A stretch of DNA of 64,000 bases from Candolleomyces eurysporus. Its lineage: Eukaryota > Basidiomycota > Agaricomycetes > Agaricales > Psathyrellaceae. Below the pieces are notes generated by a model, which made no database searches, was not told the DNA's origin, and saw nothing but the letters and a program-made list of their open reading frames with translations. The position numbers and the translations under genes are program-made. Numbering within the stretch: position 1 is the first letter of the stretch; each line of letters begins with the position of its first letter. The stretch lies in the NCBI GenBank assembly GCA_027579435.1, contig JANBPK010000818.1:1-64000 (forward strand). The letters run 5' to 3'. This document shows, piece after piece, positions 4,816-46,200 of this stretch.

Positions 4816-7711
4816 CGAACCTCCCTCCTAGTAATGACCTCCCGAGATTTCTCCTCGACGATCGTCGAAGTCTACGTTTCCATTCACTACGGGGTAATGG
4901 TTTGTAACTGTTCTCGATTTCCTCCAGTCGCTGAAGGTAATGGGTTTCTGCGTCCGTAGTCCAACCTAAAGGGCCACAAAGTTGCTCCCAAGGATCGATG
5001 GGCGGCCACCAAGACACTCTACCCATTTGACCAAGTTCACCGTTTTCTCCTGGGGAAAAAATAAGTAGAAGAACAGGCATCATAAAATGCAAGCAGAAAC
5101 CTACTTATTAAATGATCGTAATGGCCACATATGCAATCTGCCGCATCCGCGCTCAAATTGTCATCGATCAGAAATCCCCCATACCCAGTTCCATGAGTTA
5201 CACCATGGCCTTCAAACGCTGTACGGCTTGGTCCAGCGAAGACAGCACCAAACCCGATGTCTTCCATCGCCAACCTCCACACAATACCCCCTCTGAGAAG
5301 TGCTGCACGTCCTGCTGAACCCATCAGGAGCTCTTGACGGTTATGTAGGTAGCTTTCGTAGTCGTCCTTGCTGTATTGGTAGCTGTTGCTCCGAAATTGG
5401 ATACAATGGGTGGTAGATCGAAGTTGGATATTAGGAAGACTTGACACCGACCTCCAAGTCTGGAAACAAACCCCGAGACCAAGCAGGGCATGGGCAAGCG
5501 CCATGGGATCGGATAGCGACTGGTCCAATCGACAGATCAAAAGAGCAACGCCGGGAGATAGGCAGCCTACGAGCCACTTTTGGCCATGATCACTGGCAAA
5601 CCAGAAAGCCTCTCGAGCCTCTTCGACAAGGCGGCTCTGTCGACCTTTGACGTTGTCCCACTCCTCAATGAGTACATGTACCGATGCCATTGACCGCCGG
5701 AGATCTTTGAATCTTGGGAGGGCTATGACTGGCATCCCACTACCCTTCGCTAGGTCCCAACACTCGTGCAACGGAAAGCCTTTGGCCAGAGATTTGACGA
5801 ATTTAAGAACACTCTGACCATTGGCAGACTGCCAAAACGGATCCTCGCGGGGAACGAGTTTGGATATGCCCAAAACTTTGGGAACAAGGCCAAGGCAGGA
5901 ATCAATTGAGTTGGATGGTGAACATTGCAAGGATCCAGGCGTCGCAGAGCTGGCGAGGGACGCGAAAGCAAATGTGTAGCCAAACAGTTTATAAGCCGTA
6001 ATTGGAACTTCTGTCTGGGCAGACGGTTGCGTTGGTGGCTCACCCGGATAAGCTGTATCGACCTTGATTGAATTTAGAAGGGATACTTTGTCTGGAGAGG
6101 ATTTACCATCGCCCCCTGTCCCTTGTATCAGTGGAGAGAGCCCATAATAAGCGCGACACCGTGCAAGTTCTTCTTCAAAGGTTTTCCCTTCATAATCAGC
6201 CCATGTTCGAGCCATGTAATCGAGCTGTTCTTCGTCTGGAGGACCAAAGTACTCGCACAGGTCCCATTCATTGTACACACTGTCATATTTCGCTTGCCTC
6301 TTCCCAAACCTTCCACTTTCTGTAAAGATGTCGTCCATATCGTCTTTATCAGCGNGCCTCCGAACGAATGCATTACTGGTAGGATCCATTTCCCAAATGA
6401 AGTAGCGAGTTTTTCGCGGGTTGGTGGGCGGACACCGCTCCCGGTTTTCCCGCTTTACCCTCTCCTCTGCCAACTCCTGTGAGAGCAGGATAGCCCTACG
6501 AGCAGCACGCTCTTCAAAATGCACTTCCCAGGTTCTTTCTTTGGGCGCTGGCTCGGGCCGTTTCGGATAAGCCTTTGCCCTTCGCGCCTCTGGGACATTC
6601 GCAGTTGAAGGACAAAGCGCACCAGATGATGGAGGGCCAGTATAGGTCAAAAGTTTTATGTTGTGATTGCAACCAGAATTCGGGTACACGAGAACTGCAT
6701 CGGGGGGAGGAGCGTAGCGCTGCCAGAAGGGGTACCTGGAGGCGATTTCCATTTCTCTGGCTCCCCACTCGTACCAAATGGGGACACCCACTTCACACAG
6801 CCAATCGATCGACACCAGGTCTTCCAAGTCACCGTCTGGGATTTTGACAAAGACCCCAACCCTTTCCACCGACCCGTCAAACCGAGAGACGCAGGTGTTT
6901 TGAAGGTCTGATACGAAAATTTCGTCCAAACACGATGGCCCTTTCGTCTGTATGGCGGTAATACCTGCGCCGGTCTTGTTGATCTCCCTTTAGCAGCGTT
7001 TCCACCCATCCCGGTAGATGACAAACCCCTACTTCTTTCGCCCTGTCAGACATTACTTCGCTCACAGCAACTGCATACGAAAGGCATCCCAGCCAGACTG
7101 AGAACCAAGAAAAAGCGGTAAAAATGTCCTTCTTCAAACCCCCCCTTTGTTAGCCCCTTCCCTAATTCCACATTGGCATCGACCCGGGCACAAGGATAGG
7201 CAGGACGCACGGCAGCGGCTCCGGAAGCAAACAGCAAAAGGTGAGTGGCCTCAGCAATCTGGAATTGCAGTTTCTGCCACGCTGACCAGACCTTCTGCTC
7301 CGGGATGGGAAGCTTACATTCGTGGTCATAAATGACCCTTGGCATGTGCGAAAGTGGGTGGAACGGTGGGGTAGCAACGTTCGGAAAGAGGGGCGTGAAG
7401 GCGAGATATCCATGAGCTTTAGTCCACCATTGCGGTTTGCAGATATCGGGCATTTGATAGTCACGGCCTTGCAAAACCCCGTCATTCGCATTGGAGAGGG
7501 GAGGAGGAGGGGTTACGTTGGGACGATTGCAGTTTGGTGAGAAGTAAGTCCGACCGTCTATGTTGTACAGGAATCCTCGAGACTTGAGAGCCGTCTTGCA
7601 GCCTGTATTGTCTTCTCTATGTCTCGGGAGGATCGCGCTTGGAATTCCGTGCCGACCAGGGACTAGCGGATCTGGAGGGTGCGCCAGGTACGGATACCCC
7701 AGGACTTCCAT
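4691..7711 (-). CDS. Large hypothetical protein, expanded Agaricomycete family (multi-exon)
   Basis: The core is a long open exon, about 6929-5110, with clear protein-like composition. It includes a repeated Glu-rich stretch with many Arg and Ala residues, and an acidic linker (DMDDIF). A 5' exon lies at 7711-7080, and a 3' exon at about 5053-4810 joins in frame through an intron with GTAGGT donor and CCCCAG acceptor. Proteins with this layout are common as uncharacterised families in mushroom genomes; that is recollection, not a search. No enzymatic motif was found. The N at 6355 is in frame and appears to stand for a real base, unlike most N characters in this window. Exon borders at 7080-6930 are unresolved. 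Confidence 0.55.
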
Positions 7712-11049: not shown

Positions 11050-14000
11050 TCAAGCGTAGTCTATCGGGTACATGTCATCGTATGCTACCAGCTCTCGATC
11101 ATCCAACTCATCTAATTCGTTTAGTTCATCGGGTTGACGAGGATCACTTTCAGTATATTCGTCCTGAATTCCATCGTCGGCTGACTGAGATGGAGGTAGT
11201 GTGCAATTGCTTGGTGACGAGTCGGAGCACCCTATTTCTGGTGCTGAGGGCTGTGTGGTTGCTGTAACGAACATTTTAAGGGAACTGCTAATCGGATCGA
11301 ATGACTCTCGGAATACACACCATGGGTTGCGTGGCCCTGTTGGGTAGCTGCTGGCTGTAACAGGCAAAAGTCAAAGTCAGGCGAAATAGGAGGAATGGCA
11401 GGCGGCGGAAAGTCAGGGTACATGTACCTATGCCCGACGGCCATTCCCCACTGGTACCTCATGAACATGTCGCGATCAACAAACCTGGCAAAACGGCGTC
11501 AGTGGATTTATTGTCAAGAGCAGCAAGGTTGGCCCACTTATTGACGAAGTATGTGTTCCATAGATCCGGTCCGCCGGTACTCCAACGGGAGTTTACTTCG
11601 TCTAACTTGCCACATGAGAATCGCGGGATAAGATGAGTGCCGCGGATCACATCAGCGGGATCGATAAACCCCATGGCGTCCACGTCCGTGAGGGGACGAA
11701 GCTTCACTTGGACCAGAGAAAGGTCCACGCTGTGGCATCGAACGGCATACCATCGAACCCAGAGGAAGTCTAGGCGATGCAGCTTGTCACGCCTTGTACC
11801 ATCGGGAAGGACTCCAACAAAAGATGCATTCGCATGGAAGATTTTCAAAACCTTGGCGTAAATGTAGGGGTGTTCGCTTTGCTGGCTGCCGGGCGTGTAA
11901 CTAGCGTTCAATAGCATAACATTATGCTGGGAGGAGTTCGTATGAATGACGTCTTCATCTCTTCGCATGTCGTAAGTGGTAAAATTGAATCTCGCGACTT
12001 TATGTTCATATATTCGTTCGTGTTGAATCTTCACAGAGGTCCATTCCTCCAAGTCGAGGGACGCACCACGCGAGAATCCCATGCGCTGAATGACGCGTGG
12101 AAGCAGATGCTGCTTCAGCTTGGGAATGAAATCCTTCAAAACAAGGTGTGAGCTTAACCGTTGTGAGTTTGGCATCGCTTGACCTACCATTAAGTAGGGG
12201 TCTCTGAGATGAGTCACGAAGTAATGCAGATCCTGTGGGCTGTTTTGGTTCATTCCCATGGCATACGGTAAATCTGGAGATGCCATGGGTTGTGTCTCCG
12301 CTACAGGTGTTTCGGACAAATTTGCTCGTATTGCGGCGAGCCTGGCCTGACGGCGTTCGATTTGGGCCATTTGATGTTGGTAGTCCTTTTTGTCCGTTCG
12401 TGGATACCAAGACTTCGGCTGACGATGAAAAAGTTCTCCCTGAAGGCATCAGGGTAAGCGGGCATCACAGCAAGTAACGAAGTGTTGACTCACCGTCTCG
12501 GTCGAGTAAGAATCTGTCGTCCCAAATCTTTGGATCGTTGTAACATAGTCTCCCAGGTAGTGGAACTTTATTGTGTAGATGCCCAAAGAAACCGGCTTTC
12601 GGGAAGTGGTGGCAGAACCCCCGTTCTTAGCACTTCGGCGAGCCCGTGCCTCTGCCTCCTTCGGAAGCTCTCGGGTTACCACCTTCGAGCACGTATCCCT
12701 GTCAAAACTCCTAACCTGTGCACCTAAAAGTGTTGTCGAGTATTCCAAAAGCTTTAGAGTGAAGTCGTTGTGTAGCCGGAGTTTTGCTAAGGCGTGCCAT
12801 TGGGCGAAGCTGTACAACACTCTAAGGAGGGTTGTATTGTGCGGTTCAGGCAGCAAGGACTCGAATGCTGGGATAGCACACTGAGGATCGTCAGTCGGAT
12901 GTCGGCTCGTCATTGAAGGATACCCATACCTGGAGAAGATTCTCATAGTCCCTAGCTGCTCTACGTTTCATCTCGGATGCATTACTGGAGAATTTACGGA
13001 TGGAATCCTGCCCAAAGGTTGGGGTGGATCGATATCTGGGAGAGATCAGTCGATTGCAGCCAAACCAACTGAATATAGAGTTCCTACCGAAAGTCGAGCT
13101 CGGCAGCAAGAGTTGGTCCAGAAGGCCGTGTAAACGCATCGAGTAGCCGGATGAAATGTATAAAGAGCCGCTTCCAAACGCCAATCTCGACCTCGTGGAG
13201 GAGATCAACTACGAGAGTGGAAAGGATGCTGAAATCGAAGGATGCCAGAGATGTTTGCAATGCATTCTAATGGAGATGGGCCTCAGAAATTGAAGGTGTC
13301 TATATCTGACAAACGATTCGCACCTCAACCGCGATGAGCGACTCGTTTTTCAGGTGTTTATCAACTCGGTCACCATCGATTGCGAACCCGCCCTCAAATG
13401 CTTCGACTCGCGCGTCCGCGATGGATTTCATTTGCTTCTGCGCGTCGCGCAGCCGTGAATGCCTCTCCGAGTCTTCAGGTGCACCAAGTTTGGAGAGATC
13501 AAACTTGGATTTAGTGACGAGGCAGCGGTGGCAAGGGTGATTCCCATTAGTTCGAATGGTCGAAACGAGACTTCTGTGACATGGCAATCGCAAACGAGTT
13601 AGCTGAAGTCTTATCCGCTACTGATAGGTCATCCTACTTCTCTGGGTAATCGGCAGAGTAGGTAAAGATCCGAGGGAAGAAGCGGCGCCTCCGCCCATCC
13701 ACACAGGTCAGGACGATACCACTTTGCATTGCACTGATGAGTTCGCCGTCAAGCAGTGATGACCACTGCTTGTGAAAAACTTCACGATTGCAGTGGGTGA
13801 TCAGTGCGTCAGATGGAACTTTGCCTTCGTTCTTCTCCTTGAGAAAATCAATGAAGCTATCGGATAACTGTACATGCCGTTCAGCAATAGATACGCCTGC
13901 AAAGACAAACAATGTTGAAGGAATACATACAGATTCGAGATAAGCAACTTGGTTGCACAATCGCTCCGTTGGCTTGCAACGACGGTACTTCGATTCATTG

Positions 14001-15402
14001 CCGAAGAACATATAGATAGGCCAAAGCGACGCAGAACCAAATGATGTGAGAGACGTGGAATCTGACCAGAACATCAGCGCTACGACCGCGCGCTCCAGAT
14101 TGCAATCTTCATCATCGAGATGGAGCTTTTGAATCTCTTCGTGGGCTTCCCGGAATACGGGCGACATGTAGAGTTCTCCATAGAGAGGGGTTTCTGGGAA
14201 ATGAGGTGCAGGCTTCCAAGTGGCGGAGAAAGGGTAGTAATGAAATCGGGGTTGGTCGGTTTGGCTGGTGAGCTTCTCTTTAATGACTGATACAATGCTG
14301 CGACAGCGCATGTTGCCAACGAAGTATGAGTGGGTGCCGGGGTTCTTCATGCGGCGGTGGAAGGGAACATCGATGGAAATAGGCACCGTCTTCCATCCGT
14401 CGTCTTCGATCCATGCACTATCAGCGTCATCAAGGTCTTCTCTGTTTGCACCCAGAGCGCGGAAGGCTGCGTTCCAACCAGTGTTTGCAACATCGGGGAT
14501 TGAGAAGGTAGGGTTCTTTATAATTTGAAGCAGATCATGGAAGTCGCGCATCGATTTGTTCGGGGATTTCCAGTACCAATGGGCAAGGGACAAGGCGCTT
14601 TGATTTGAAAAGGGACCGTACTTGTGACACCGGGCCACGGTTCCCTGGCTTGGGATGTCGGTGAGATCAGACAAAGTGATGCTTTGGTCGGGATCATGAA
14701 TGAAGCGAGATCCAGGCGGCATGGCGTACTGTCGGGTGACGCCAAACGCACTTGGTCGAGACCGAAACGCTACGAGGGATATTGAAGTATTCGCTGCAGT
14801 TGCTTGTGAGGCGACAGTAGCGGAGGTGTAGTCGACGACCGTTGAGGTAGAATCCTCTTCTCTATCGAGCTGAACGGGTGGGGGACGCTCGGGAAGAACG
14901 TCATCCCGGTAGCGGGCGGGGAGGCGAATCCGTCTGCTAGACTTTCTCATTGCGATGGGTTGGTCTATGTTCTTGAGGACGTCAAGATGTCAGAGAGACG
15001 ATAGGGCTATAGTGCCGTGGAAAAGCGTACAGCATTGCCCGGAAGGTCGGTGAGGTTTGGCACAGCAGGAGGTGCGTTTGGTTGATTCGCCTGAAGCCAA
15101 CACAATTAAGCTCAGCGCGCGCCATCACACAACCAAGTGGCACCCACCGAACGTGTCGGTACTAAGTTTTCGGCGCTCACACCCTGTGTATCAATACGGC
15201 GCCGCTTCCTGGCTTCCCAAATGACCTTTGTCTGGGCCAGGAGATCTGAAAGCTCCCTCTTGGTTCCCTGACATTGTCGGCTGTGGTAATCAAGAGTCCA
15301 CGAGGCGGCGAAGGTCTTCTTGCATCCGGCGCATGGAAACGAGCTTTCGGAGGCTCGTTCATATTCAGACTGTCGTTGACGAAGTTGGGATTTAGCCAGC
15401 AT
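11050..15402 (-). mobile_element. Plavaka-family DNA transposase, complete multi-exon gene
   Basis: The N-terminus carries a C2H2-like zinc finger (FPCAGCKKTF, then H and C about 15 residues on). A long exon (14950-13620) follows, with typical landmarks: YPFSATWKP, LYGELYMSPVF, VALMFWSDSTSLTSFG, WPIYMFFGNESKYRR, THCNREVFHKQW and FPRIFTYSADYPEK. Then come HPCHRCLV (about 13540), VVDLLHEVEIGVWK (about 13165), PTFGQDSIRKF, FHRQPKSWYP (about 12415), FVDRDMFMRYQWGMAVGH (about 11480) and an acidic tail ending PIDYA. Every junction checked uses GT-AG and keeps phase, with no internal stop. This family belongs with the CMC (CACTA-like) DNA transposons found in fungi. An intact frame suggests recent insertion or retained function. 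Terminal inverted repeats and target-site duplication were not located. Junctions at about 15000 and 11370 are approximate. Confidence 0.85.
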
Positions 15403-21514: not shown

Positions 21515-22777
21515 GTATGGGTTCACCTGCAAGTTAAGTTGAGAGAAACTGTTGTCACACCTGTGACAGTTCAGCGCGCTCAATTATAGCTTGTGACATC
21601 ACCGGGCCGGGGCGGATCTGTCTTCAATGGGACACTGGGCCAACCCGCCAGTTTTAACATACTGAGCCGTGGCCTGAGGCGGTGAGGGCTAACTTGAGGA
21701 GTCTGGCATCACGCCGGATTGTACTCAGACTCCGAGACGGATCATAACACAATGAAACCAAAAGCCCCCGGTGGCTCGAGAGTGTCGCTTCTATGACAAG
21801 GCTTCCATTCCATGCCATCACGGGCCTTGCGATCAGGGCCGTCGCACAGGCTGAAGTACCAGCTCAGCTCGAGGTCCCAGAATCCCGTCGCCACCGTTGA
21901 TGGAGCGTCGACCCTGAGTCGGGAGATACCGAATCGGTAGCAATCAGAATCTCGGCATGTCGGCAAGCGAAGAATTTGAATTCTTGAACTCGTTGCTGCA
22001 TCGGCAGCGTGGCCCACTGGTATGGAGGGACGCTTGAGCTCTACAGAATACAGTAGCACACAAGCCCCACGGATTCTCGACTAGTAGCTGGCCAGGGAAT
22101 GTGACCCATAGCCTCGCACCCCCGAACAGGCAGAGAGGGTATTGAGAGATTATGTGTCCTGGGCAAGACTGAGTCATGAGCTACAAAGGCTGCCAAATTC
22201 ACCTCGATTCCTGCAGAAACATGCTAAAATGACCACTAACACGGGCAAATTTTAGTAACAAACCGCACGCAAGCCCGTCTCTGTGCCAAGTGAACCCAGT
22301 GGGAGCTGCTCATCATGCCGTGTTCCCACCAGGTTTCTGTATTTGGAGGGTACCCCCTACCCAGCCCGTCAATCATGTTCAGGATCGAGGAACCTGAGGC
22401 CTTTTCCTGCCACTCCTCGCCATGATAAACGGACGTCTGGCGAGCGCTCCATGTAGCGTTCGCTCTGATTGGTACTAGTCGAACCTGGATTGGCTCCCGA
22501 TCTGCTAGTCAGGGCTCAAAGTTGCTAAAGATTCGGGGCCGGCAGTACTAGACTCAGTGCATCAATCGCCGGGGGTACGAGCCTTCCCAGTACGACCGTT
22601 GGTACCAGCCTCAGGCTTGGTACCGTGCCATCCCGGCCCGTTAAAGAGCGCTTTCCGTAAACGTGATTAGGCTTGATAATATTTGATGTATGACAAGCTT
22701 GTGGCGATGCGGTGAACTTCGTCACGCTCAGGTGGCATGCTCAGTCAGTGAACGTCCGAATGCTACTGTTACCCAAA
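21515..22777. other. Intergenic, no credible gene
   Basis: Short open frames on both strands lack introns, conserved motifs and coding bias. Sequence is mixed in composition with no repeats noticed. It should include the promoter of the plus-strand JmjC-like gene starting at 22778. Confidence 0.4.
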
Positions 22778-25700
22778 ATGAAGCGCCCGCCGTCTACCTA
22801 CCGCTCTCTCATCCCATTTACAACGTCCGCTCCAATTGCTGATGCGCCGCTGCAGGACCACTTCCCCTCGGGGAGTCAATACCGGGTGAGCTTAACACCC
22901 AGGCGCTCACCCATCACATGCTCACAGCGGGCTACTACTAGACGTTTGCTCATCAGCTCGACAAATTCGATCAAGACCTTTCCAATGCCATTCCTTGGGG
23001 TGTTTACAAGCCCGCCGACCTTCTGCTTGACGATGAGTCGGAAGCAATGCCCAAAACCAGCATTTATCGCGTCATGAGTGGTAAACTCGCCCCTTCAGTT
23101 ACGGAGGGGCTGGCAATGTACACAACTGCCTACAGATTCTATGATGTGCTAGTTCGATTGAGGGGGTCAGCAAGCTGCCGCTCCTTGCCTCGCCCACTGA
23201 GGCACAAGAGGCAGGATGGTTGGGTAGGGAAAGAAAGCCAGTGGCCGGTAGGCTTCCTCCTCTGCAACTACCCAGCACCAAATGACGTAGGCTTGCTCTA
23301 GAATTTAGCCGCCCTATCCGACTTGACACAGATGCTGAAGACCTTTGTAGATGAAGGGCAGACGGCAACCAAAATTCTTCTCACTAAACCCCGGGCTCCA
23401 GTCGCTGCGAAGTCACAGACAAATGCCTCTGTCCGCCTGGCTGATGAAATAGCAGCCGTCAAAAGGGGCAAAAAGGTGTTAGTTGTCGTCAAGAATATGG
23501 CTTATGTGGCTTTTTGCATCAGCGTCATGATGAGGGTGTGTACCCCCATACTCCAGCATCCAAACCTTGTTCTGAATGCCAATCTATTTCAAGGGGTACC
23601 TGCAAGTTCCTGACCATGCTGATGAAATTGGCTTTGACGAAGAAACCGCAGCTTCCCAAAACGTAGCACCCCTCATGAAGAAAGTAAAGCGAATGCGACA
23701 AGCTTTGCAACAAGTGACCGCGATATCGCCGCTTTTAGCTCTAGTTTCAGAGGACTTGACCGATCCGTTCCTGTGCCATGAGGAGCTACTGCTGGTGAGT
23801 CAGTTTCCTGGGAGCCCGAAGACAGTGCCTTACCAGCACCCTGCTAGAACATGAAGTTGCTCGGAAATGACACCCCGGCGCCCATGCGTGCCCTCGAAGA
23901 TGAGGTTTGGAATGCAATACTTGGGATCGTTGAAGGCCGTTACACTTCGATTTCCGCATACCTCCATCTGCAAACCGTTGTGAAAAATTTCCTTGGGAAT
24001 ACCACGCTAGACACCGCCGGGAATGGTTATTTTGGCCGCTGTGAGTACTACAAAGATGGATGGTGCATGGCTAATCAATAAATCTGCGAAGCATACCCAA
24101 TTTTCTACCATAAGGCGATGTCCGTCTATACCGCCTTTCCTGAAGATCCTCTTCCATGCCATTGGCCCCTTCCTCCAGCCTCTCGATCATACCTTGCCTG
24201 TAAATTCCTGGATGAACAAGGCGGCTGTCAGGATCCAAGTGCTGCGAGCGACCCTTCGATTGGGACTGGCTCGTGTCCTTCAGCAGACCAAGACCTTCAG
24301 CCAGGTGGGGAAGCCGCGGCCCCAGCAAGCAGTCTTTGGCGCACTGTTCAAATGGCGTCTGACCCCACAACCTCACCCTTAATCAGCCCACAATCTTGTG
24401 ACCACGGCGATACAGTGGAGCAACAGGAGTCAGATGTTGAGGTGACCCCAGCTTCACCTGACACGAGTCCTACCAGCGACGATTCCGTGGAGCAACGTGG
24501 TGCAGACCCTGAAGCTCGCAAGACCCCAGGGCTGTCGATAACACCGTCCGGCACGAGTCAGAGCGACGATTCAGCAGAGCCAGAGGTTGAGGCCCGCAAG
24601 ACGCCAGGGCCCTCTACCGCTCCGCTTGACGCGAGTCAGAGCGACGACGATTCAGGGGAGCAGCAGGGTACAGAGACTGAAGCAACTGCCCTGCAGAACA
24701 ATAAGCACCCTCAGCCCATGACGAACGTCAGAGACAGCCTCCCATATCCAAACGAAGACACACCAGCTGATATGCCAGTCGATGTTACCAAACCTGCCAG
24801 GCGCAAGAACCCTGAAAGGGAAGCCTCACGTTTGCCATTTGTCAAGCCAGCGGGTGTTACCAAAACCGTTAAACCCAAGAACCTTAGAAAACATGATTCC
24901 ACCTCAGCTCAGACCCCGGAAAATGAAGTGATATTGGTGGACCTCGAAGATCTTGCACCAAAGGGTGAAACGGAACGCCTCAAGATCATGAAGGACATCA
25001 TCACCGTCGTCAAGGTGGAGGATTCGTCAGTAAGTCAACGACTAAACTCGCTGATGACGGTGCTCATCTTGGGTCTAGGTCGATGCACAGGCGGTCGAAG
25101 GCGGCACGACTCAGCCCTTACAGCTAGGAGTTCTAGTTGAGGTAAGACGTGGCGTTCAGTATGGCACAGAATCGAACTAATGGCTGTATATAGCGCTACT
25201 CTAAGGAGACCAAGGAGATGGAATTGTGGGACGGTCAAGGACGGTGTCATCGATATAAGCCCTGCGTTCACGTATGCTCTGTGTCTGGATGCTTATAGCC
25301 TATCTTCTGACTTCTCCATTCTAGTTAAAGCAGGATTATACCACGTGGTTTTCCATCTATGAGGCCTGCGTCTCGAATTACACCGACGCTCTCTGTCTTG
25401 GTCGACCCAGGCCAAAGTTCATTGACGATCCCCAAGGATCACTGTTTCGCTGTCTACGGCAAGACGAATATGAAGCGATGACGGCTCCCGAGGTTCAAAA
25501 GATACTGTCCTCGCAGAGCATTGTCATCACCCAAAGTGCTGGGCCAAAGATTTGCTTTGACGCATCAGGCATTGCCTCCCTGAACACGAGTCTGACGCGT
25601 GAAACTGACATTCAAGGTATCTAGTACACTTTGACAAGTATCGAAGCGTTTAATTCACCACATTCGTTCAGACCAATCTATTCCAGATGAACAGGGTGAC

Positions 25701-27402
25701 TTTTCGGTTCGCGTTCGCAGAGGGACCCCTAAAGATCTCCTCAACTGCTCCGCTGCACCGTCCGAGATGAAAAAGAGCTTGAATGCCTTGTCATTTCCAA
25801 ACCCTCTTGCCGGCATACATCCTAGCGCCTACGCTACCGACGTTCGGGCTTTTTTCCGCACTGGGAAAGATGAACACTGCGTTCGTACTTTGCCCACTGA
25901 GGATATACGATTTGGCCTGGCCGCGACCGAGGGTGCACATCATTATTGGCACATAGACAGTCGTGGAGAAGGCACGTTCGTTCGAGTCGCTACTGGAAAG
26001 AAGATATGGACCCTTGCTGCACCCATTGACCCATCTGACGTATCATCAACGACAATATGGAGTGTTGATCTTGATGTGCGAATGCTCGATTGGTCGAAGT
26101 GGAGGGCAGAGATGATCCTTCTCAATGCAGGTGACACCCTGTGAGTCGCATCGCTATCATTGATGCAGCCAGCGGCTGACTTGTTCATTCAAGTGTCATG
26201 CGGCCAACGACTGCGCATGCAGCTTTTACAGTTGAAGATGCTATATGCCACGGGGGCCATTTTTTGCCGGTGTCATGCCTGTCGCATATTGTCTTTGGCA
26301 GCGCCCACACGTTTTTTNGAGGGGCGCGCCATTACCAACATCGATCACCCTTCTTTCCAATCCCGCATGAACCTTCTAGTCGGGTTTTTCTTCAGAACAA
26401 TGGTACTTGGCGATGTCGAGGAGCTTGGTGAGTCAAACCGCGGTTTCCAACAGGCTCGACCTCATGCTTGATACAGATATCGGACACATCCCTGACGTCT
26501 CGACGACAGCCGGGCTATCTGACTTTCTCATCTTTGCATGCGGCATTGAACTTCAAAATTGTCTTTGCAATACGAGCTACCTCCCTACCGAAAACCCGAT
26601 TCTGATAGAGACTCTTGCAAGAAGGAACTCGCTGTCACCCGAAGAGGCGCTCTGGAAGTATGACGTGTCCTCTATGCCCCATGAAACAAGACTCCATAAT
26701 ATAGCCAGCCGCGCCCGGGTATGCGTCATTCTCAGAGAGATCTTCAGCCAGATCGCGGTCATGGACGGAGCCGGCGCTGTTCAAGAGCCCTGGAAGTTCT
26801 TATTTTTCCCGACACTTGCTTGGTATATCCATGCGTTAAAGGGCTACTATGAGCGATCGTTTGGACAAGATAGCCTTGCCGCCAAGGGGCTTTCAAAACG
26901 GGATGTCCCCGACCCGAACCTCTTTTACCGGCAGCTAGAATGGACGTCGAGGCGTTGGCCAGAGCTCAAGCCCCTGGTTGACCATTTGGAGCAGCAGAAT
27001 GTCAAGGCAGACAACCTAGTCTACGCTCTACCTCCGTTCACGATTCGTCCATGGGATGCCACGAAAGCGAAAGGTAATGAATCTGCGCCGTCATGAATCA
27101 TCCGCTTGCTGAACTCTTGGCTGGATAGGTGACGTTGAGACGGGGGACGAGCTGTTCATGCTTGGTATGAGAGAAGGTGACACATCCTACCTTTCAGCTT
27201 ATGCCTCCTGTGCCAAGTTCGATCCCTTGCCTGCATCCGGTTTGCGACGGAAATTCGAGGAAGATGAAGATGAAGATGAAGATGACAGCGCTCAAGCCAA
27301 AGGTATTCAACGACTGCCCATTGATGCTGGAGAAGAGTCACTGACAATGGAATCACAAACCCATTTATAGTGCAATCTCACAAACGACGGCGCGAAAAGT
27401 AG
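22778..27402 (+). CDS. Large protein with C-terminal JmjC-like 2-oxoglutarate/Fe(II) dioxygenase domain
   Basis: Exons link in phase by GT-AG introns; verified ones include 25079-25141, 25194-25271, 25325-25616, 25672-26140, 26194-26427, 26477-27073 and 27129 onward. The N-terminal half is uncharacterised, followed by an acidic disordered zone with three related SDDS..ARKTPG repeats (24463-24660). The C-terminal domain has HHYWHIDSRGEG, giving an HxD iron ligand pair (His 25950-25952, Asp 25956-25958), then KIWTLAAP, and MRPTTAHAAF with a candidate distal His (26216-26218), as in JmjC folds. The N at 26318 must be dropped to keep frame into FEGRAITNIDH. The tail is EDEDEDEDD, then a basic KRRRE end if the last intron (27309-27370) is spliced; otherwise the stop is at 27370. 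Likely nuclear; substrate unknown. The part before 24.35 kb could be a separate gene. Confidence 0.6.
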
Positions 27403-28017
27403 TAGCTTTCGAAGCGTTATTAGTAGACCTGCCTACCTTAGTCCGATTGTTAGTTCAACTATTGCTTTGTATCGCCTGCGATGTCCGCCTTCCCAAAGGC
27501 GTGGGGTGACCATTCGCTGGCAGTCGGGGCTGCCCAGTGGACATGCACTGGAAACAACTTGAAGGTGAGTGGCAAAATGGCGACAGGCGCGGGCCCCAGC
27601 CTGGGCCAAAAGTTGGCCCCAACTCTCGCCGGACCGCTGCCGAGAGCGGAATTTGCCGGAAGCGCGGAGCTAACGGTTGGCACTGAGCGCCTGCCACATA
27701 TTTCTGCGACTGCTAGTATGTAGGCCAGCCTTGAAAAGCTCCGACCGCGTTTCCCGCGCAACTCTCCCCACCCTTTGTGCCGCTGCGTTCTCTGGGCCTC
27801 CACACGCGCGGGTCGCTTTCAGGCGGATCTAACCCAGAGGTCTGTAGCCTGTGACCCGCGTTTGCCAAGCACCGGCGAACCCACGGAAGCCACTCGCCTC
27901 TCCAGCCTTGGCAGCCACCAACCCCAAGCTTGCTGCTAGGTGCGGCACCCTGCCGTCTGCCCCGCGCCTCATTCAGCGACCACCATTTCCGGCTCGCCAA
28001 CGTCAAGCCTACGCCTT
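27403..28017. other. Intergenic between the two dioxygenase genes
   Basis: About 600 bases, GC-rich toward the right. Long open frames exist on both strands because stops are rare in GC-rich sequence. Some could belong to the 5' end of the next gene, whose open frame extends back to about 27930. No separate gene is supported. Confidence 0.4.
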
Positions 28018-29916
28018 GCATGCTGCCGTCCGCCAGCGCCTCAAGCTGGGCCTCCCAGCCATCCGCTGGGCCAAGTAGCCCACTCCCGCCGCCGCTTGAC
28101 GCACTGCTGCCAACGCACGACGCGCCTCCCCCATTCAATGCCCTGGAGCCCGCGTATGACGCGCTGCTGAAGGAAAATAGGCTACGACGGACGCTGCTCG
28201 CACCAGGCATCGGCGACGTTCCGGCTGGACGGCTTGGCGTCATACACGCCCAGTGGGACAGCAAGGTTGGATTTGAGCAGGCGTTTAGCCGACAGAGTGA
28301 TAGGGGCGACGAAATCGACGAAGACAACCCAGACTTGGTTGTTACAGGCCAAGTGTGGGCTGTACCTCCCGACCAGCTCAACTTGGACGTTGCCGGGAGC
28401 TGGAATGCGGACCTGGTAAGCCCTGAGCCCATTCGCTGGCCCGACTCACTGGCGCTAACCTATTTATGAAGACCTCTGCCAACCCCACNGCCGGTCCCCC
28501 CCCTGCCTCCTCCCCCCCCTGCCTCCATCATGCCAGGGGCCGCCAGCGAACATGCGAGCATGCGGAAGCAACGCAAAAAGCGACAGGGTCACAAGCTTCG
28601 CCGCTCAAAACAGCGAGAGAAGGACGCAATCGAGCAGAAGGTGAAACCGTTTGATCAATTTGCAGGCTACAGGCACAAGCCTTTGACGCTGACAAGATAT
28701 GGAAAATTCCAACAAATCGCAAGTGCCCTCTCTGCCGACGCTCTCCCCCGAAGCAGCGGCCCATCGTGGATAGGGAAGCGCGACCCCAAGCGAAGCAAAA
28801 AAGAGATCGAGACTTCAGTCCCTCACAACGTCGACACGCTGGTGAACGTCTACGGCTACCAGCTAGTACGCTATGAGCCTGGGTGGGTGCCATAAGCCTT
28901 CCAATACATATCCTCTGTGCTGACGCTTCCCTTCAGCGTCAATAAGGTCATTGTAGGTTCCAATAATGTCATGATTGTCGGTCACTTTGATCGACCTTGC
29001 GACCTCGAGTGGGACAGGAGCATGGCTGAGGCAGAGCGTGCCTTTGCTGCTGCTCGTGATGCTGGGATGGCCGATGGAACGTTTACCCTTGCGAGCTTGC
29101 AACATCGTCGAGGTCACTTTCTAGCCCTCCTCACCGGCGTATCATTTGGCGGAGGCCAGCAGGTTGGTTCCAAATTGCAAGGTCCTACGTGCCACGCGTT
29201 TATCCTTTTTAGCACCCAGGAAACCTTTATCACCAGTTGCACGCTCAACGCGTTCTCACTCAGTCCATTTTGCAAAACAAAGCTGTCCAGCAAATTGCCG
29301 GCTATCAATCCAGTAGGTCAATGCCCAGCCCAGCCTTCCCTGGCACTAATTACTACCAGGTACCTTCCATATGCTTGCACCTAAGCTCTTTTGCTTTTAC
29401 GGCACTGAGATAGGCAAGCTTTTCAGGAGCCAGCCCGAGCTACAGCATAACTTCACTAACAGCATATTTCCCGCAGTCAGCTTCAACTGCGGCCCCGTCA
29501 GCATTTCGCTACCCCACCGCAACTACAACAATCTGTCGTTCGGCCTCTGCGCCCTCACAGCATTCGGCAACTTCGACTATACGCAGGGCGGCCATCTTGC
29601 TCTTCATGAGCTAAAGCTCGTTTTTGAGTTTCCCTCAGGCACGACCTTTCAAATTCCTTCTGCAGCAATCAAACACAGCAACACTCCAATTCAAGATGGG
29701 GAGGAGCGATACTCAATGGCACAGTATGCCGCTGGGGGCCTGTTCTGCTGGGTGGCATATGGCAACAAGACTGCAGCCACCTTGCAGTCTACCAATGCTG
29801 GTCACCGGCTCAAAGAGTCAGTGGATATGGCAGACGGAGAGCGGTGGAGGGACAGGCTCGCGATGTATTCAACAACCGACTCGTTTTTTTCAGACCACAG
29901 CGCCTCTCCCACCTAG
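28018..29916 (+). CDS. TET/JBP-like 2OG-Fe(II) dioxygenase with Asp-to-Asn change in the HxD motif
   Basis: Exons: up to 28415, 28472-28882, 28937-29162, 29213-29312 and 29360-29916, all GT-AG and in phase. The start is uncertain (28018 used; the frame is open from 27930). A basic Lys/Arg stretch (about 28556-28640) precedes the conserved part. The latter has HRRGHF, HPGNLYHQL, IAGYQ, NFTNSIFPAVSFNCGP, GGHLALHELKLV, FQIPSAAIKHSNTPI and RYSMAQYAAGGLF, closely following fungal TET/JBP proteins, which act on modified or methylated DNA bases. The iron motif reads LPHRNYNN: His (29515-29517) is kept but the usual Asp is Asn (29521-29523). The distal His (29674-29676) and the RYS Arg remain. The frame is otherwise intact, with one spurious N at 28489. 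It could be catalytically dead, or a weak or altered enzyme. Confidence 0.8.
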
Positions 29917-31870
29917 CACATCCTGGACTTGCCTGGGCCATGCTTCTGTTTCCACCCAGTCGCTCAAGTGAAGGCAGGACGCATCCACCTCTTGACGCTG
30001 CCGCCTCATGGTCCAGGCTCGCAAACTGTGACCCCACCCTGGGTTCCAAGTGAAAGGTTCCTCCCAACTTGAAAGCGGCTACTCCTCGCAGCCCCGCGAA
30101 GGTTGATCCATTGCAATGGGACGTCGTGTTTTAGGGACTAGTTCTGGATTCATTTGTAGCTTTGTACGGGTATGCTACACACCACNTTTTTCTATGAACT
30201 CCTGGCACCCTTGCCGTGCTATGCCTTCCAACATGCCGCTGAATTAACTCCGAGTTCAAAATAGGTGACAGCCTTGGGACTCTGTCACACAGATGTCACG
30301 CCACGTGATGTTGAATGCAAGTTGACTGGCACTAAGTTCAAGTTGAACCATGGTGCCTGGCATGCTGCCAGACTGACTGCCGGTTGGTCACAAGTTTGGG
30401 GACGGCCATCTCTCTGCTTACTGCCTACCAGAGCAACGGTATCCAAGCGCCTCACTACATCCAATCCCTACTATGGCTGGTTACAGACTTGGGCAAGACT
30501 CTAGCCCGGATTTGCTGAAGAACGCAGCTGACGGCGCTGCCTGGGCTCTAAGCTGTCGGCGTCACTGACCGCTGGCCTCCACCCACAGCATCCCTTCTCC
30601 AGCCTCGCCTTTCCTGTCAATCACGAAAGCAGGGCCCTGTTGGATCCCTGCGCCCCCGCCCTCCAGGAGCTCCCGCGCCTACCGCTCCCCACCTCCCGCC
30701 GCCAACGAAAAGAGCGGCTACCGGGATGAATGCTGCAGCGCTCAGTACAAGCCCACATCGCCTAGCGCCAGCAGATGGCATACCCAGCTGCCTCACTCAC
30801 TGCTTCCGCTACAGGCAGTCGGATTGTAGGAGGGCTTCAAGTCTGTCTCGCGCCAGGCAAGCCACGAAGCGCCGAGCAGCTCGAAATGCTCTCTTCACGA
30901 CTATCCACGATCCCTTCATTCGAGTTCTCCCTGTGAGCTGTAATATATTTTGCCACTTTACTCTCTTGGTTCTAACTAATTCATTCAGGCGACGCACACC
31001 CTGACGCTCCCAGACGTCCATTCAGCTGCAGCGCTGAGAGGGCTGCTTCTCCCTATCTCAGGCATGCTCCCATCAAGACGACCATTCAAGGCCAAATCTG
31101 CCCTCCGAGCCACTCCCCCAATACCTCGATCGCTATACTGAGGGTGTTGACTTGTTCCGAAACCTCAAACGTGCGCACCTTTCGCAATATTCTCCAAGCT
31201 AGCTGGCTCCAAATCTCCAAAGAGAGTTGGCAAGCTTCGACTGACCCAAACACCGACCGGCACCAGCTCGAATCAGGTCCCCAGCTCCCGCTGACAAAGG
31301 ATATCGACCTTCCAATCACTCCATGGTGCGGTCCATCTCTCCGTACTCCTTGATCAACCGCTGAATTGTCGTTGCCTGCAGAGTCTGTCCAGCCTAAGCT
31401 CACGATCGGGAAGACTGTTGAATATCGTGCTGAGTTGTAGAATTATCTTCGGATTTCACCTTCTTACGCTCGCTGAACCTTTACCCTATGGTAACTTTCT
31501 ACTGTCGCTATACCTGAGCTATATGCTAGATACACAGTGGCTTGGTGATCTTCCTACGACTTACCTATAGTAGCGTTACTCAACGTCCATGGAATGCGAC
31601 GTCGTATACGCTTCGTTCTCGACCTCCAACCCGTACCTGGTGTGAGGCATGCATATCACCCTGGACAGCCGTGCTCACCTAGCGAAGACTCCCGACGAGA
31701 TACTCAATTCGTTGCAAAGTGCCTTGCCTCCTGCTTCGGAAGCGATGCTGCGTGCCCCAGCCATGTAAAGTGCTACCGAGGCCTCTGCCCGCGGTAAGTA
31801 CTTAGCTTACCCGCTCGGCTCAGCCCGCTTTACGAACCGTATTCTCAGCTAACGCCGTTCTGGCGACTAG
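29917..31870. other. Gene-poor stretch with no supported coding region
   Basis: Short frames of under about 100 codons on both strands, with stop-rich neighbours and no splice-linked continuity. An N at 30186 lies next to a T run. No known domain, repeat family or RNA gene was identified. Confidence 0.4.
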
Positions 31871-32217
31871 GTTCGCGTATAATTGAAGACTGCTGGACTG
31901 GCAACTGAATCTGCCCGAGAAGAGTAGAGAGCGGTGGCCTTGAATTTCAGAAGCAGTCCGAGAAGCAGTCCGACGTCGCTCGACCCAGAGTGGGAGACTT
32001 AAGCTGGAGTTAACAGCAAGTTGGAGGTACGATTCGAGGCCGCAGCGACTGGGTTGGCGTATACTCGAAGAATGCTGGACGGGTAAATAAATCTGCGCGA
32101 GAAGGTTAGAGGGCAGTAGCCTTNAATTTCAGAATCAGTCCGACGTCGCTCGAGCCAGAGTGGGGAGGCTTAAACTGGAGCTAACAGCAAGCTGGGGTTA
32201 CGGATCGAGGCCGCAGC
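31871..32217. repeat. Tandem duplication, about 182-bp unit
   Basis: Copy 1 starts GTTCGCGTATAATTGAAGA at 31871 and copy 2 GTTGGCGTATACTCGAAGA at 32053. Both go on with TGCTGGAC, AATTTCAGAA, CAGTCCGACGTCGCTCG and end GAGGCCGCAGCG near 32045 and 32217. Copy 1 has an extra internal duplication of AGAAGCAGTCCG. The N at 32124 is in copy 2, where copy 1 reads TTGAATTTC. Non-coding; possibly a transposon end or minisatellite seed. Confidence 0.75.
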
Positions 32218-32569
32218 GCGGAGCCGCAAGTGGTCACGAGCACTTCTGGTCACCCCTTCTCGCGACGACGAACGCTTTTGGTCGCTGTCTCTCGCGGCCA
32301 CAAACAACTCCAAGCACCTTTGAGTCGGTTCTCGCGGCTCTCATTTCTTCAACCACTGCAGCCAACTCTCTCGTGAAGCCACTATAATCAACCGCGACCG
32401 CCCTTGGCCATTTCTCGCCCCTGCCACCACCCTATCGCTACCGAGCCAACCCATAGGCGCTAGAATACTCCCGCTGCGCATATCTATCCCCGGTCGTCCA
32501 CCAACCGCGAACGCCAATCACGAAAGCACGTCGCCGATCGTTCCATTCTTCTTCCACCAATCCATTGGA

Positions 32570-33011
32570 ATGCCGATCCCCAGCGAACTCCTGATCCTCA
32601 GCGACCAAATCCCTGCTAAACTCGAAGATCTGGAGGAGCTTCGAAGTTGCTCCGAGTCTGCGATTTTCGGCTACGATGAACGCTGGCCGGAGTGGCCCTT
32701 GGCCTTTTGGGTTGTTCAGTCAGTCCCGGCCCTCAACAGGGTTTGTCTTCCTTCTCGACTGACTCCGTCCCCCCTTCCCATCCCTTTCTAGTTCGGCCCA
32801 TCTTCACCCAACCGTATCCGACTCACGTCGCCACTACACGCTCCGCGGCTACCTCCCATCCGGAATCGCCGTCCGCACGCTCCACGTCTATTCCGACGGC
32901 GACTGGAATGTGCGTGTAGATGGCGGCAAGTACGGCTGGAAGCTGACCCCCAAGGGAATCAAGGATCCTGCATATCGCCTCTCGTTTCGCGAACGATGCG
33001 TTCCCCTTTAG
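32570..33011 (+). CDS. Small hypothetical protein, two or more exons
   Basis: ATG at 32570 begins an exon with MPIPSELLILSDQI and an aromatic run FGYDERWPEWPLAFWV. After a candidate intron ending in a CTTTCTAG acceptor (about 32790), a clearly coding exon reads HYTLRGYLPSGIAVRTLHVY, then SDGDWNVRVDGGKYGWKL, and ends RERCVPL before a TAG at 33009-33011. The donor phase at about 32740 does not fit perfectly, so one junction or base may be wrong. The second exon looks like a compact beta-rich domain. Family unknown; about 140 residues. Confidence 0.4.
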
Positions 33012-33873
33012 CACACAGGCTGCCGGGAGCGCTTGATAGTCTGTAGATTTTCGTCGCAGCTCAGATTTGAGGCACGTTACTCAGACGCTGCACAAATAAC
33101 CCAGCTTTCTTTCTTCCCTAGTCGCCTCCCTCATCATTGCACGCCATTCGGTCTAATATTTGCTTTCGAAAATTTTTGTCCTTGTTCATACCCCTGCTAG
33201 CTCCGCTATACCTTGACATACCTGCATATTTCTATCTTTCTCTGCACATCTGTATATTGTAGGATCATATATAACTTGTAGCTGTATCCCTGTATATTGT
33301 AGGATCATATATAACTTGTAGATGTATCCCTGTATATCTGTATACCATACCATCTCTTGGCTCTCAATTTAAAGGTTCTTATAATCAAATGCTTAGCTAT
33401 GGTCATCAGCAGGTCTGCTTTTGCCCAATTATGCATTCCATAATTCAACAGGTAAAATTCATAGCATATGAATAGGGAAGGAACTAGTAACCTTTCTAGG
33501 TATGTCAGATTTACTACTAGAATAAGCCTCAGACTCGTGGCTCATGATGTTGAAGAAGCTGCTCCATTAGACCTAGAATAAACGCAGAGTACATGTAGCT
33601 CATATGCACGCCCTCCACTGTAATAAACAAGGATCGAAAGTACATACCGCGTCGATAGATGATTCACCGCACTCGCAAGCTTCACCATCCTGATACCTTT
33701 CAGACAAACCATTATATTCTCCGGTGCCGTCTGATCAGGATGTCAAAAACTAGCATCAGTCCGACAGTTCCCGATCAGCTATATCTGGCCATATCAGCTC
33801 TCCCACAAACCCCTGATGTAAGCGAGGGACGATCAACTGTCTTTCCGTTGTGCATTGTCCCTCTTCATCCAAC
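33012..33873. other. AT-rich intergenic region with a 40-bp tandem repeat
   Basis: No gene. It contains the 40-bp tandem repeat described separately and AT-rich sequence up to the start of the KH-domain gene. It coincides with the change from the accessory to the conserved half of the window. Confidence 0.5.
33251..33330. repeat. Perfectly spaced 40-bp tandem repeat, two copies
   Basis: 33251-33290 and 33291-33330 differ at one position (GCTG versus GATG within the unit). The unit runs TGTATATTGTAGGATCATAT and on through ATAACTTGTAG to TATCCC. Flanking TGTATATCTGTATACC suggests older decayed units. Near-identity points to a recent duplication. Confidence 0.9.
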
Positions 33874-35616
33874 ATGACCACAGAATCGAAATCCAAATGG
33901 GACCAACCAGGTCCTCAGAAAGCTCAAGAAGCATCCCCAGCACCGCGCTCTGGGAGCGCGGATGCGGCAGCGAAGAAAGTGGACGCAACTCAAGCAGCTG
34001 CTCAGGCGGCGGCCATTGCTGCAAAGATTGCTGCACAATTTGCTTCCGGCGCTGGCCCTTCCGATGGAGGGCATCCGGAACACCAGTTCGTCAAGGATAT
34101 TGATATTAATGATGTGAGGAACCGATACATGTTGACCAAGGGGGTTACACAGCAACAGGTGAGCTCAGTTCTACTAGATTCATCTGTTCGTTCTGCAAAT
34201 ATGACGACTCAACCTCCACCCCTACATCGTAGATCCAAGAGGAATCTGGCGGAGCCGTCGTCAGCACGAAAGGTATCTGGTACCCAGACCGAAGCAGAGC
34301 AACCGAAAAAGATCCCGCACTCTACCTTCATGTCACCGCCCCAACCGCTGAGGTCTTGCAGAAAGCTGTCGACAAGATCAACGAGCTTATGTCTGTTGAC
34401 CTAGGTTCTTTAGTCGAGGATAAGAAGAAAGAGAAGGTAAAGTAGCTCGCCCGAAGATTTCCACCCCCTTCTCTATTTCATTCTTGTTTTATCCGCGAGG
34501 TGAGGTATGCTGACCATTTGGTGCTTTTTTGACACTTTACCCCTTCATATTTGACCACTATAGCGTAAATGGCCGGAGGAGAAACTTACAGTTGGGTTGG
34601 AGTCGATCCGAAATTTCAATGTCAGGGCGAAGGTGGTTGGGCCCAGTGTATGTTGCGCTTCCTCTCTCAGTAGATGTTCACGTTACTCATGTTTTTCCTC
34701 AGGGATCTTTTGTCAAGTACATCCAGCAAGAGACGAATGCACGAGTGCAGATCAAAGGTATTGGGTCGGGCTTCATTGACCAAGAGACTGGGAAGGAACA
34801 CGACGAGCCTCTGTTCATCCACGTTACGTACGGGGTTCGACCTAAATTCGCACAAGCCTTTGGTATACTAATGGTTGCAACAGTTCCCCGGACGAAGGTC
34901 AGGTAGCACGAGCGAAGGTACTGACTGAAGATCTCCTGCTCGTGGTCCGTTCAGAGCATGCAAAGCAGCTGGCTCGCATCCAGGAAGAGCAATCAGCGCT
35001 TCACGCAGCTCAAATGCAATACGCTGCATACAGCGCATCGATGGTACGTTGGCTAGGGTTGAGTCGCGCGTACGCCTCTAACAGCAGTGTGCAGGCATAT
35101 GGCGCCAATCCAGCAGCTCCTAGTGGTGCGCCTCCTCCACCTCCCGATCAGCCTCCTCCACCGCCACCTGGCTCCGCCGGTGCCAGCAACCCTGGATCAG
35201 CTGCTACCCCGGACGCTTCACAGGATCCCATGGCAGCGTATACAGCATATTGGTACGTGTAACTTCTGTTCAAGCCCGTTATCTCACATCATACCGCTCC
35301 GGTTGACGGCGTCTTTCTCTTCATTCACCTGTTTGTCCGTCCATTCTACTGGTACACTAACTGACGCTTCCATTGTCGCTTTCTCTCTCTTCCATTCTTT
35401 GATGCACTACATGCATGTCTTCTAAACAACAGGGCTGCTTACGGATACGACGTTAATTCGCCGCAGTTCAAGGAATGGATGGCGCAGCAGTATCAACAGC
35501 ATGGTCAAGGATCTGGAGGTGCTCCTGAAGGGGCTGCTGCCAGCGGTGCTAGCGCGGCTGCCCCTCCTCCCCCACCTCCCCCGCCTGGAGCTGCACCGCC
35601 CCCGCCTCCATCTTAA
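33874..35616 (+). CDS. KH-domain RNA-binding protein, KHDC4/BLOM7-like
   Basis: Seven exons fit exactly: 33874-34158, 34233-34436, 34564-34647, 34703-34827, 34884-35043, 35095-35252 and 35433-35616, giving about 399 residues. The N-terminus is Ala/Ser-rich. A first KH-like segment holds VRNRYMLTKGVTQQQIQEES, GIWYPD and PALYLHVTAPT. The second KH domain contains FNVRAKVVGPSGSFVKYIQQ and TNARVQIKGIGSGF; its GPSG stands for the GxxG loop that contacts RNA. The C-terminus is Pro-rich (runs of PPPPP) and Gln-rich. This arrangement matches the conserved eukaryotic KHDC4 family, linked in animals to splicing. Likely nuclear. No frameshifts. The gene opens the conserved part of the window. Confidence 0.88.
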
Positions 35617-43272: not shown

Positions 43273-46200
43273 CTATGACGATGCGGCCAACGCTCTTCTC
43301 CGGCGAACATCCTCTAGCGCTGCAGAAATGGCAACCTTGGAAGCCCGTTGCTCTTGCCATTGCTCGCTATTCCGCCTAGAAAACAATCATCATCAACACG
43401 CGAAACTGATTCTGAGATGGCCTTGAAACTTACTTGATGCGATTCATGAACACAACCACATGCGCCACGCTCTTCAGAGATCGTCTGCGTTTTGCCTGCT
43501 GCGGTTTCACCGGGAACCCAATCCTCGCAATCGAAGCAAAAATGGTTCGTTCGCTGGGTGTCACATCGTGATGAGAATTGTTCTTTCAACCAAATTTTGG
43601 CATTGAAGCTGACTCACCTCTTTTCGAACTGAGCCAAGAGAACCAGGAGGTACCGCTTCTGGTATGTAAGGTCGCCTCGGAACGACGATTCCCGAGTGAA
43701 TTTGGCTTTCAGGTAACGTATTTGAACCATCAGACCCTTGCACTCCTTGTTATGCTGCATCTTCAGGTCCGACACTTGTTTGCTATCCCTGTCAACAACA
43801 ACCCAGGTCAGCAAATCGAGACACGGCAAATGTCAGAAAAAGACCACATACGCAGCACAAACATGGCTCTCATACACCTCAAGCGCTCTGGCTGCCCTCT
43901 GTTTCTGTGACTCCAACTGCTCATTAAGCAGTCTAACCTGAGTCTGCGACTGCTTCTTCGCTCTCTCTCCTTTCTGGACCTCTTCCTTCAGCTTGCTTTC
44001 AAGTTTCTCCTTCTCAGCTCTCAGCGTCCTGAGATCACGACCAAAGGCTTCGGCGTCTCGTCGTACACGTCGAAGGTCAGCTTCGAGGCCAGAAACTGTC
44101 TTGGCAACTCCATCTTTCTCTGAGGCGATCCTCTCCTTTTCGCGTTCGGCCTTCTTGAGCTGGCTTGAGCGATCGTCGAGAGCTTGCTTGAGTTCGTCGA
44201 TTTCGAGCACCTGGAGGTCGAGCTTGTGTCGCCAATTATCGTGCGAGGTAGAATGGGCAGCGTGCTTCTCGCGCAGCCGGCTGACAGTCTAAGGAATTGG
44301 TCCACTTGAGAAAAATGGCTACAAATGCATGCTCGTGCATACTCACCTCTGATAATTCAGAGTAACGTCTCTGAAGGTCCTTGTGGTCTTTGGTAATGAA
44401 AGAGCGCTCTTGCCTCAACTGAGCAATGGTGTCCATGTTTTCTGCCACCTTGGTTTCAAGCAACCTTGCTTTCTGATCGGCCGTAGTGTTCTCTACAAGG
44501 GTTATCGTGAGTCAGGGTCCACATTCCGGGTCATCAGTACTCACGTCGCAATTCCTTCTCAAGCTCATTGTTCTCCTGCTTCAAGCGCTGTAGCTCCTGT
44601 TTGACTCCGTCCATATCCTAGCCGATGAAATGAAAGTTAAGCATGGGTCATTCCAGCAACCAAACAATAAGATCCTCTTACCGATTCTGCCCTTCGAAGG
44701 TCAGACAAGACATGCTTCTTGTCTTTCTCCGCCCGTTCTTGCTCAGCAGCAATAGACCGTAATCGTGACCGTTCTTCGCTCAAAGCACGCTCTAGGTCAG
44801 CGATCGTTCGCTTCGCCTTATCAAGTTCTGTCTGGACATTCGACTTCGCTTTTTCTCCGGCACGACTCTCTTGCTTGGTCTCCTTGACCTTGACATTAAG
44901 ACGCTTGTTATCAGCTTTGAGATTTTCCATATCCGTTCTCAATTGGTCAAGACTGGCATTGGCAAGCTGCAACTGATTCTTCAAAGCTTCCGAGTTCTTC
45001 GTGAAAGGTGTAGGCGGGTCAGCTTCCATGTCGTCCCTGGACAAGTCATAGGAGCTACGAAAATNGGGGGCACAGAGAAGGTCAGGATAGGCCAAATTGG
45101 GTCTAAACAAGCTTTCAACGTACCTTTCATCAGTAATCAAATGAGGGAGATCGAGTTTAGTGTTACAGTTCTTGCAACGAGCTCGAGCAAGCCGCCGTGA
45201 GTAGCGATCCTCTTTCCTCGAAAGTCTTGCTATCTCATCTTCTAGACGAGAGATCTTGGCACGCGCATCTTCGAGTTTCTTGGTCAGACCGACTACGCCC
45301 AGGCCTGCATCTTCGAGTCTGTCGAGCTTATCGTCGATGCTGTCGTTGGCGACATCTAGTTCCTTCTGGAGACGGTGAATCTCAGCGATGAGTGGTGATA
45401 CCGTGGGGTCATTCGTAGAGTTGTTCAACCACGACATCTGATTCGTAAGTTAGAAATGTGTTCACGGCGCTATGACAGTTAGAATGGCACTTACATCCCT
45501 CAGCGGCGCACCAGGCGTTCGGGGCGCTCTAATCGACATCGACAGAACTTGGCGGTGGATAGGAGAAATGGTGCTGCCGTTCACATATTTGTGGGGCGTC
45601 GTCATTTCGTTATACGTCATCCTCAGAGCCTTGTTTCGCTCCAGCAGTTCTTCGCGTTCCCGCTCCAGCATCTCGATGCGAGCGTCCTTGGCCTTGTCTA
45701 CTGCCTCGCGTGCAGAGGATTGACTCAACAGTGTATTGAGTCGACCAATCTCCCTGTTTGCCTCGTCGAGTTCCTGTTCCAGTGCCTCCAGCTCTTCTTC
45801 AGTCGGTCCAAGCGGTGTCGCTTTCCATGAAGGTTCATGGGGCATATCGGCCATTTTCTGGTACTTGTCCCGCTCGCGTTCCAGGGATGAGATCTTTCCT
45901 TTCAGATTCGCGATTTCCGCCCCATCCTCCACCAGTTTATCGTGGGCCTCTGCTAGAGCGTCCTCGGTCTGAGCGGTGAGATCTCGCGCTCGTTGAGCTT
46001 CGCGCTCCAGATCCTGGATCATATCAGCCGTCTGCTGCTCAGCGATGTGCATCGCCTCCATAGTGGCCTTCGCTTCAGCGAGCTCCCGTTCATGCTGCTC
46101 GACGGTGACAGCCGCTCCTTCTTCCAGCTCGTCGACATATTCCTTCATTGAAGCAACCTCCTCTTCCAAGCTATTGATCTTTGCTTCCATTCCTTCGACT

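Follow-up and report, generated by a model that had tools for sequence, protein, structure and literature searches.

A TET/JBP-like gene of Candolleomyces eurysporus with Asn at the iron-binding Asp position is probably a decaying duplicate

Organization of the locus

The window, the whole stretch of 64,000 nucleotides analysed here, corresponds to contig C1104 in a search of the 65.9-Mb assembly of C. eurysporus (1,296 contigs), and contains a gene related to the TET/JBP dioxygenases together with the following exons and neighbouring features:

13634-14986, minus strand: open frame matching the Plavaka transposase (Pfam E-value 3e-17)
25325..27096 (approximate limits), plus strand: JmjC-like gene, recognized from its frames and from 2 of 7 relatives being named JmjC domain-containing
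28020..28415, plus strand: upstream coding exon, an open frame of 132 codons from ATG with the donor gtaagc, closely similar in contig C1108
28472..28882, plus strand: exon B, with the family frame starting from ATG 28530 and an N at 28489
28937..29162, plus strand: exon C, with an Asp to Gly change at 28956
29213..29312, plus strand: exon D, with two Arg replacements, by His at 29213 and by Gln at 29291
29360..29916, plus strand: exon E, encoding the catalytic double-stranded beta-helix part and the stop codon
33817-34404, plus strand: open frame weakly matching KH_12 (E-value 0.002, below the curated cut-off)

Exons B to E are separated by GT-AG introns (28883-28936, 29163-29212 and 29313-29359) and join in phase to give a 411-amino acid reading from ATG 28530; by-eye comparison placed the same three junctions in the gene on contig C988 (L010) and in its database protein P0003. 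The first-pass annotation had described the gene as otherwise clean and in phase throughout, which holds for these four exons but not for the upstream exon, which falls beyond the span that it covered. Across its GT-AG intron (28416-28471), this exon joins exon B out of phase; exon B exceeds its C1108 counterpart by 16 bases, which causes the shift, and includes a C-rich tract as well as the N at 28489. According to a paper on a related genome (PMC12786890), Ion Torrent data predominate in the GenBank assemblies of C. eurysporus and two of its congeners. For this reason, and because extra Ns break the frame of the C1108 copy, the exon B frameshift is not counted as proven and cannot be called real or false. 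Among the 18 Ns of the window, those at 47510, 51858 and 53266 coincide with frame switches of long frames and those at 6355 and 45065 sit within unbroken frames, and some of them probably mark indel uncertainty.

A sequence profile search of solved structures returned no TET relative among its five matches (E-values 0.22 to 0.79), and a fold search was therefore needed. It was carried out on P0001 (H1R20_g16678), a C. eurysporus protein 95% identical to the window protein, rather than on the window protein itself, with an alignment of 58 of 120 relatives chosen for spread. The AlphaFold model of P0001 (pLDDT 92) adopts a TET-like double-stranded beta-helix, and its best PDB matches are CcTet, NgTET and TET2. 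The Pfam family PF12851 is matched by 8 of the 58 relatives at an E-value of 1e-3 or better, and exon E alone scores 12.2 bits against it, below the curated cut-off of 34.9.

Among the neighbouring frames, one set of seven contained the only Pfam matches above cut-off, to the Plavaka transposase and to CDP-alcohol phosphatidyltransferase, while scans of two other sets (5 and 8 frames) gave nothing above cut-off. The JmjC-like gene lies upstream of the TET/JBP-like gene and largely inside the same duplicated block. On C1104, C1108, C288, C303, C1008 and C1092, matches to one exon of the JmjC-like gene occur together with matches to, or remnants of, TET/JBP genes, at distances of 4.9 kb on C1008, about 12 kb on C303 and about 29 kb on C1092; the two genes could possibly form a paired anti-silencing cassette. 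At the other side, the block shared with C1108 ends where the frame at 33817-34404 begins, and this frame may mark the beginning of a host gene.

The iron motif and other conserved residues

Four positions in exon E, all on the plus strand, describe the state of the catalytic site:

29515..29523: His-Arg-Asn (CAC CGC AAC) at the HxD iron motif
29674..29676: distal iron His (CAC), kept
29707..29709: Arg of RYS, kept, which we take to be the 2-oxoglutarate Arg
29746..29748: Cys (TGC) in place of the FRW Arg

The initial assignment to the TET/JBP family, the HRN reading of the motif and the presence of the distal His and of the RYS Arg were all borne out. The HxD...H iron triad is broken in the window copy at its Asp, and the Arg after the distal His, which presumably binds 2-oxoglutarate, is in place. 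In TET enzymes, exchanging the Asp of HxD for Asn abolishes activity. A database search gave 133 relatives, 120 of which were listed and counted. In these 120, the iron position is occupied by Asp in 116, Asn in two, Val in one and a gap in one, and the motif His, the distal His and the RYS Arg are present in 119, 119 and 115, respectively. The two closest relatives of the window copy, C1108 (CAC CAC GAC, HHD) and P0001 (HRD, with RPGN and FRW), are both of the HxD type, which answers the concern that close relatives might also use HxN.

The conserved blocks, noted at first pass as present throughout, carry further losses. The FRW Arg replaced by Cys at 29746 is found in all 118 listed relatives that have a residue there (gap in 2 of 120; 133 matches in total), the Asp replaced by Gly at 28956 in 101 of the 106 listed relatives with a residue at that column, and the Arg replaced by Gln at 29291 in 110 of 117 listed relatives. 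Across 121 sequences, the window copy departs from the conserved residue at 6 of 55 columns, compared with 2 of 55 for P0001 and a median of one, and ranks eighth or tied eighth. It is hardly conceivable that catalysis is altered rather than lost, with Asn serving as the third ligand: both His residues and the 2-oxoglutarate Arg are all that remains in favour of such an enzyme, other conserved residues, the FRW Arg among them, are also gone, and HxN occurs in only 2 of the 120 listed relatives (of 133). The proposal of an altered activity is thus without support, since private replacements also occur at near-invariant columns away from the iron site.

Copies, substitutions and the origin of the Asn codon

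The last exon has 28 matches on 25 contigs of the assembly. On 20 contigs besides the window, in a tally that leaves out the matched contigs C992, C1101, C744 and C1007, the iron position is Asp in 18 cases, Asn in one and unreadable in one. Two stretches of the window are duplicated on a larger scale:

25616..33820: block of about 8.2 kb colinear with contig C1108, 95.5% identical
22652..33287: region matching contig C288 (L035) in colinear pieces, 66-86% identical

The limit at 25616 is the end of the C1108 contig, whereas beyond 33820 there is no match longer than 80 bases between about 39 kb of C1108 and the right side of the window. The pair may have arisen by segmental duplication, as a transposon copy or as two haplotypes. 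Two extra Ns, one in exon A and one in the last exon, break the C1108 frame and are taken as assembly marks; when they are omitted, the gene encodes Arg at FRW. Contig C288 lacks 28234-29916, i.e. the TET/JBP-like gene. Since apparent remnants of both gene ends are visible by eye at the junction (L035 positions 6090-6160), the gene, as judged from these remnants, was probably deleted there. Another TET/JBP copy, on contig C502 (L021, about 44,700-45,120), reads HCN (CAT TGC AAT) and contains a TGA within the match, and a relative, L013, reads CAT CGC GAT; the Asn of C502 thus appears to reflect a change similar to that of the window.

The divergence between the window gene and its C1108 counterpart is dominated by transitions at CpG sites. 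The 69 substitutions in the gene comprise 62 transitions and seven transversions, and 43 of the 69 are exchanges between CpG and TpG or CpA, with CpG lost 28 times in the window and 15 times in C1108. The rate of CpG transitions per site is about 12 times that of non-CpG transitions in the gene and about nine times over the block. If the HRD of P0001 is the older state, the window lost the CpG of the Asp codon, and C1108 lost that of the neighbouring Arg codon, which makes two adjacent hits of a single kind; the Asp to Gly replacement at 28956 does not involve a CpG. In the flanks, CpG changes make up 57 of 137 substitutions with the direction reversed (16 losses in the window, 41 in C1108), so the window locus overall is not the more decayed one.

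This pattern bears on two further explanations of the Asn codon. Very little probability attaches to an assembly or sequencing artefact, such as a mixed consensus of near-identical copies: the assembly is fragmented, with 18 Ns in the window, the data for C. eurysporus and two relatives are reported to be predominantly Ion Torrent (PMC12786890), and searches of the 65.9-Mb assembly did not recover the 3,990-base contig that carries P0001, but the AAC site lies outside homopolymers with no adjoining N, and its codon is one of 28 CpG losses on the window side, a pattern that errors would hardly produce. It is possible, though on balance unlikely, that the copies are alleles rather than paralogues, C1104 and C1108 (or the 3,990-base contig) being dikaryon haplotypes with HRN polymorphic. 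Such an interpretation agrees with the 95.5% identity across 8.2 kb and with a GenBank assembly size of 70 Mb, where two relatives have 33.6 and 60.6 Mb (PMC12786890); against it, colinearity with C1108 ends at 33820, and about 39 kb of C1108 beyond that point shows no match over 80 bases to the right side of the window. The allele interpretation is compatible with the decay mechanism.

No purifying selection was seen between the window and C1108 copies. From 28530 in exon B to exon E, nonsynonymous and synonymous differences number 32 and 13 (dN/dS 0.73 by NG86), and a neutral simulation weighted for CpG gave 66% replacements compared with the observed 71%, with 78% of the runs at or below the observed value. 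By protein parsimony on three copies, with P0001 available as protein only, private replacements number 20 in the window, 12 in C1108 and one in P0001. Four of the 20 affect columns that are strongly conserved (Asp in 101/106, Arg in 110/117, Asp in 115/118 and Arg in 117/117 of the listed relatives, excluding P0001), and nine are Arg losses, as expected from CGN codons. The window-private Ile at P0001 position 113 is the commonest family residue there (90 of 106 listed relatives), and so may not be a new change. Simulated neutral copies remained free of stops in 12% of cases with 45 substitutions (both lineages) and in 26% with an assumed 28 (one lineage), and the open frame is therefore weak evidence of retention.

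These results leave a low probability for a retained pseudoenzyme, in which the dead protein would bind and shield modified DNA or interfere with active paralogues. A four-exon open frame with the distal His and the 2-oxoglutarate Arg intact fits such a protein, but purifying selection is not seen against C1108, and the FRW Arg, universal among listed relatives with a residue there, has been lost along with other conserved residues. The suggestion that a dead enzyme is kept for another role has no support here, given the neutral proportion of replacements, the private changes at near-invariant columns away from the iron site and the existence of Asp copies in the same species. Two Mycena proteins, P0032 (Mycena vulgaris) and P0040 (Mycena metata), carry HxN and otherwise conform at the conserved columns (1/55 and 1/54 departures, respectively), and HxN is therefore not always tied to general decay. 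These are better pseudoenzyme candidates than the window copy, although they represent two species and only 2 of the 120 listed relatives (of 133). It is very doubtful that the recurrence of HxN in the window, C502 and the two Mycena proteins reflects repeated selection of dead DNA-binding TET/JBP proteins as guards or dominant regulators; if true, mushrooms would possess a regulatory layer of such proteins.

The window gene is thus probably a decaying, non-functional TET/JBP duplicate, whose iron Asp was most likely lost by a CpG transition, and very recent inactivation is the best supported of the three readings offered at first pass. Mostly CpG transitions relative to C1108 and private changes at conserved residues count for decay; the absence of stops and frameshifts from exons B to E and the integrity of the iron and 2-oxoglutarate residues other than Asp count against it. 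It is likely that a TET/JBP dioxygenase gene was duplicated several times in C. eurysporus and that the window copy decays, probably under CpG methylation. The ancestral motif would have been HRD, and deamination of the 5-methylcytosine that pairs with the G of this codon's Asp form would have converted GAC to AAC, for which ordinary deamination of methylated CpG would suffice. The product, if made, would lack the carboxylate ligand, would not hold Fe(II) properly and would be catalytically dead, and presumably nothing retains this copy.

Comparison with known TET/JBP systems

For transposon-borne TET/JBP genes, the resemblance lies in an agaric TET/JBP gene with a Plavaka transposase match about 13 kb away, while the difference lies in the motif: the PE-type proteins have HxE for HxD as their hallmark, as described by Kojima 2025 (PMC12730594), and the family of the window gene has HxD. 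Glu was found at the motif position in none of the 120 listed relatives (of 133). The duplicated block (22652-33287/33820) and the Plavaka match were both seen, and element ends enclosing the match and the TET/JBP-like gene were not found at the locus. The AG-type proteins are marked by Gly331 and Asp337 of CcTet; a simple count from the motif His, as opposed to an alignment, would place Asn (+5) and Cys (+11) of the window copy at these positions.

Literature searches found, among the papers listed, no reports of TET/JBP pseudoenzymes with HxD changed to Asn or of CpG decay in Agaricomycetes, and either may still be in print. On a small scale, the locus shows clearly how members are lost from an expanded family of DNA-modifying enzymes: TET/JBP copies seem to die through CpG mutations brought about by methylation, the mark against which the enzyme is believed to act. 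It also cautions that, when the codon of a lost catalytic residue lies in a CpG, an open frame says little for a retained pseudoenzyme.

The structurally characterized CcTet of Coprinopsis cinerea (PDB 7w5p, 8jkk and 7vpn; 14% identity) binds metal through His326 and Asp328, where the window copy has HxN. By descent, the latter appears to be a broken TET/JBP homologue and not an active member. Activity is predicted for 47 of the 74 TET/JBP genes of Laccaria bicolor and for 32 of the 47 of C. cinerea (PMC8889193), the latter being counted as 32 of 46 in PMC12730594. These expanded families therefore include paralogues for which no activity is predicted. Such mushroom TET/JBP paralogues are thus already on record, and the window copy adds one more to this class.
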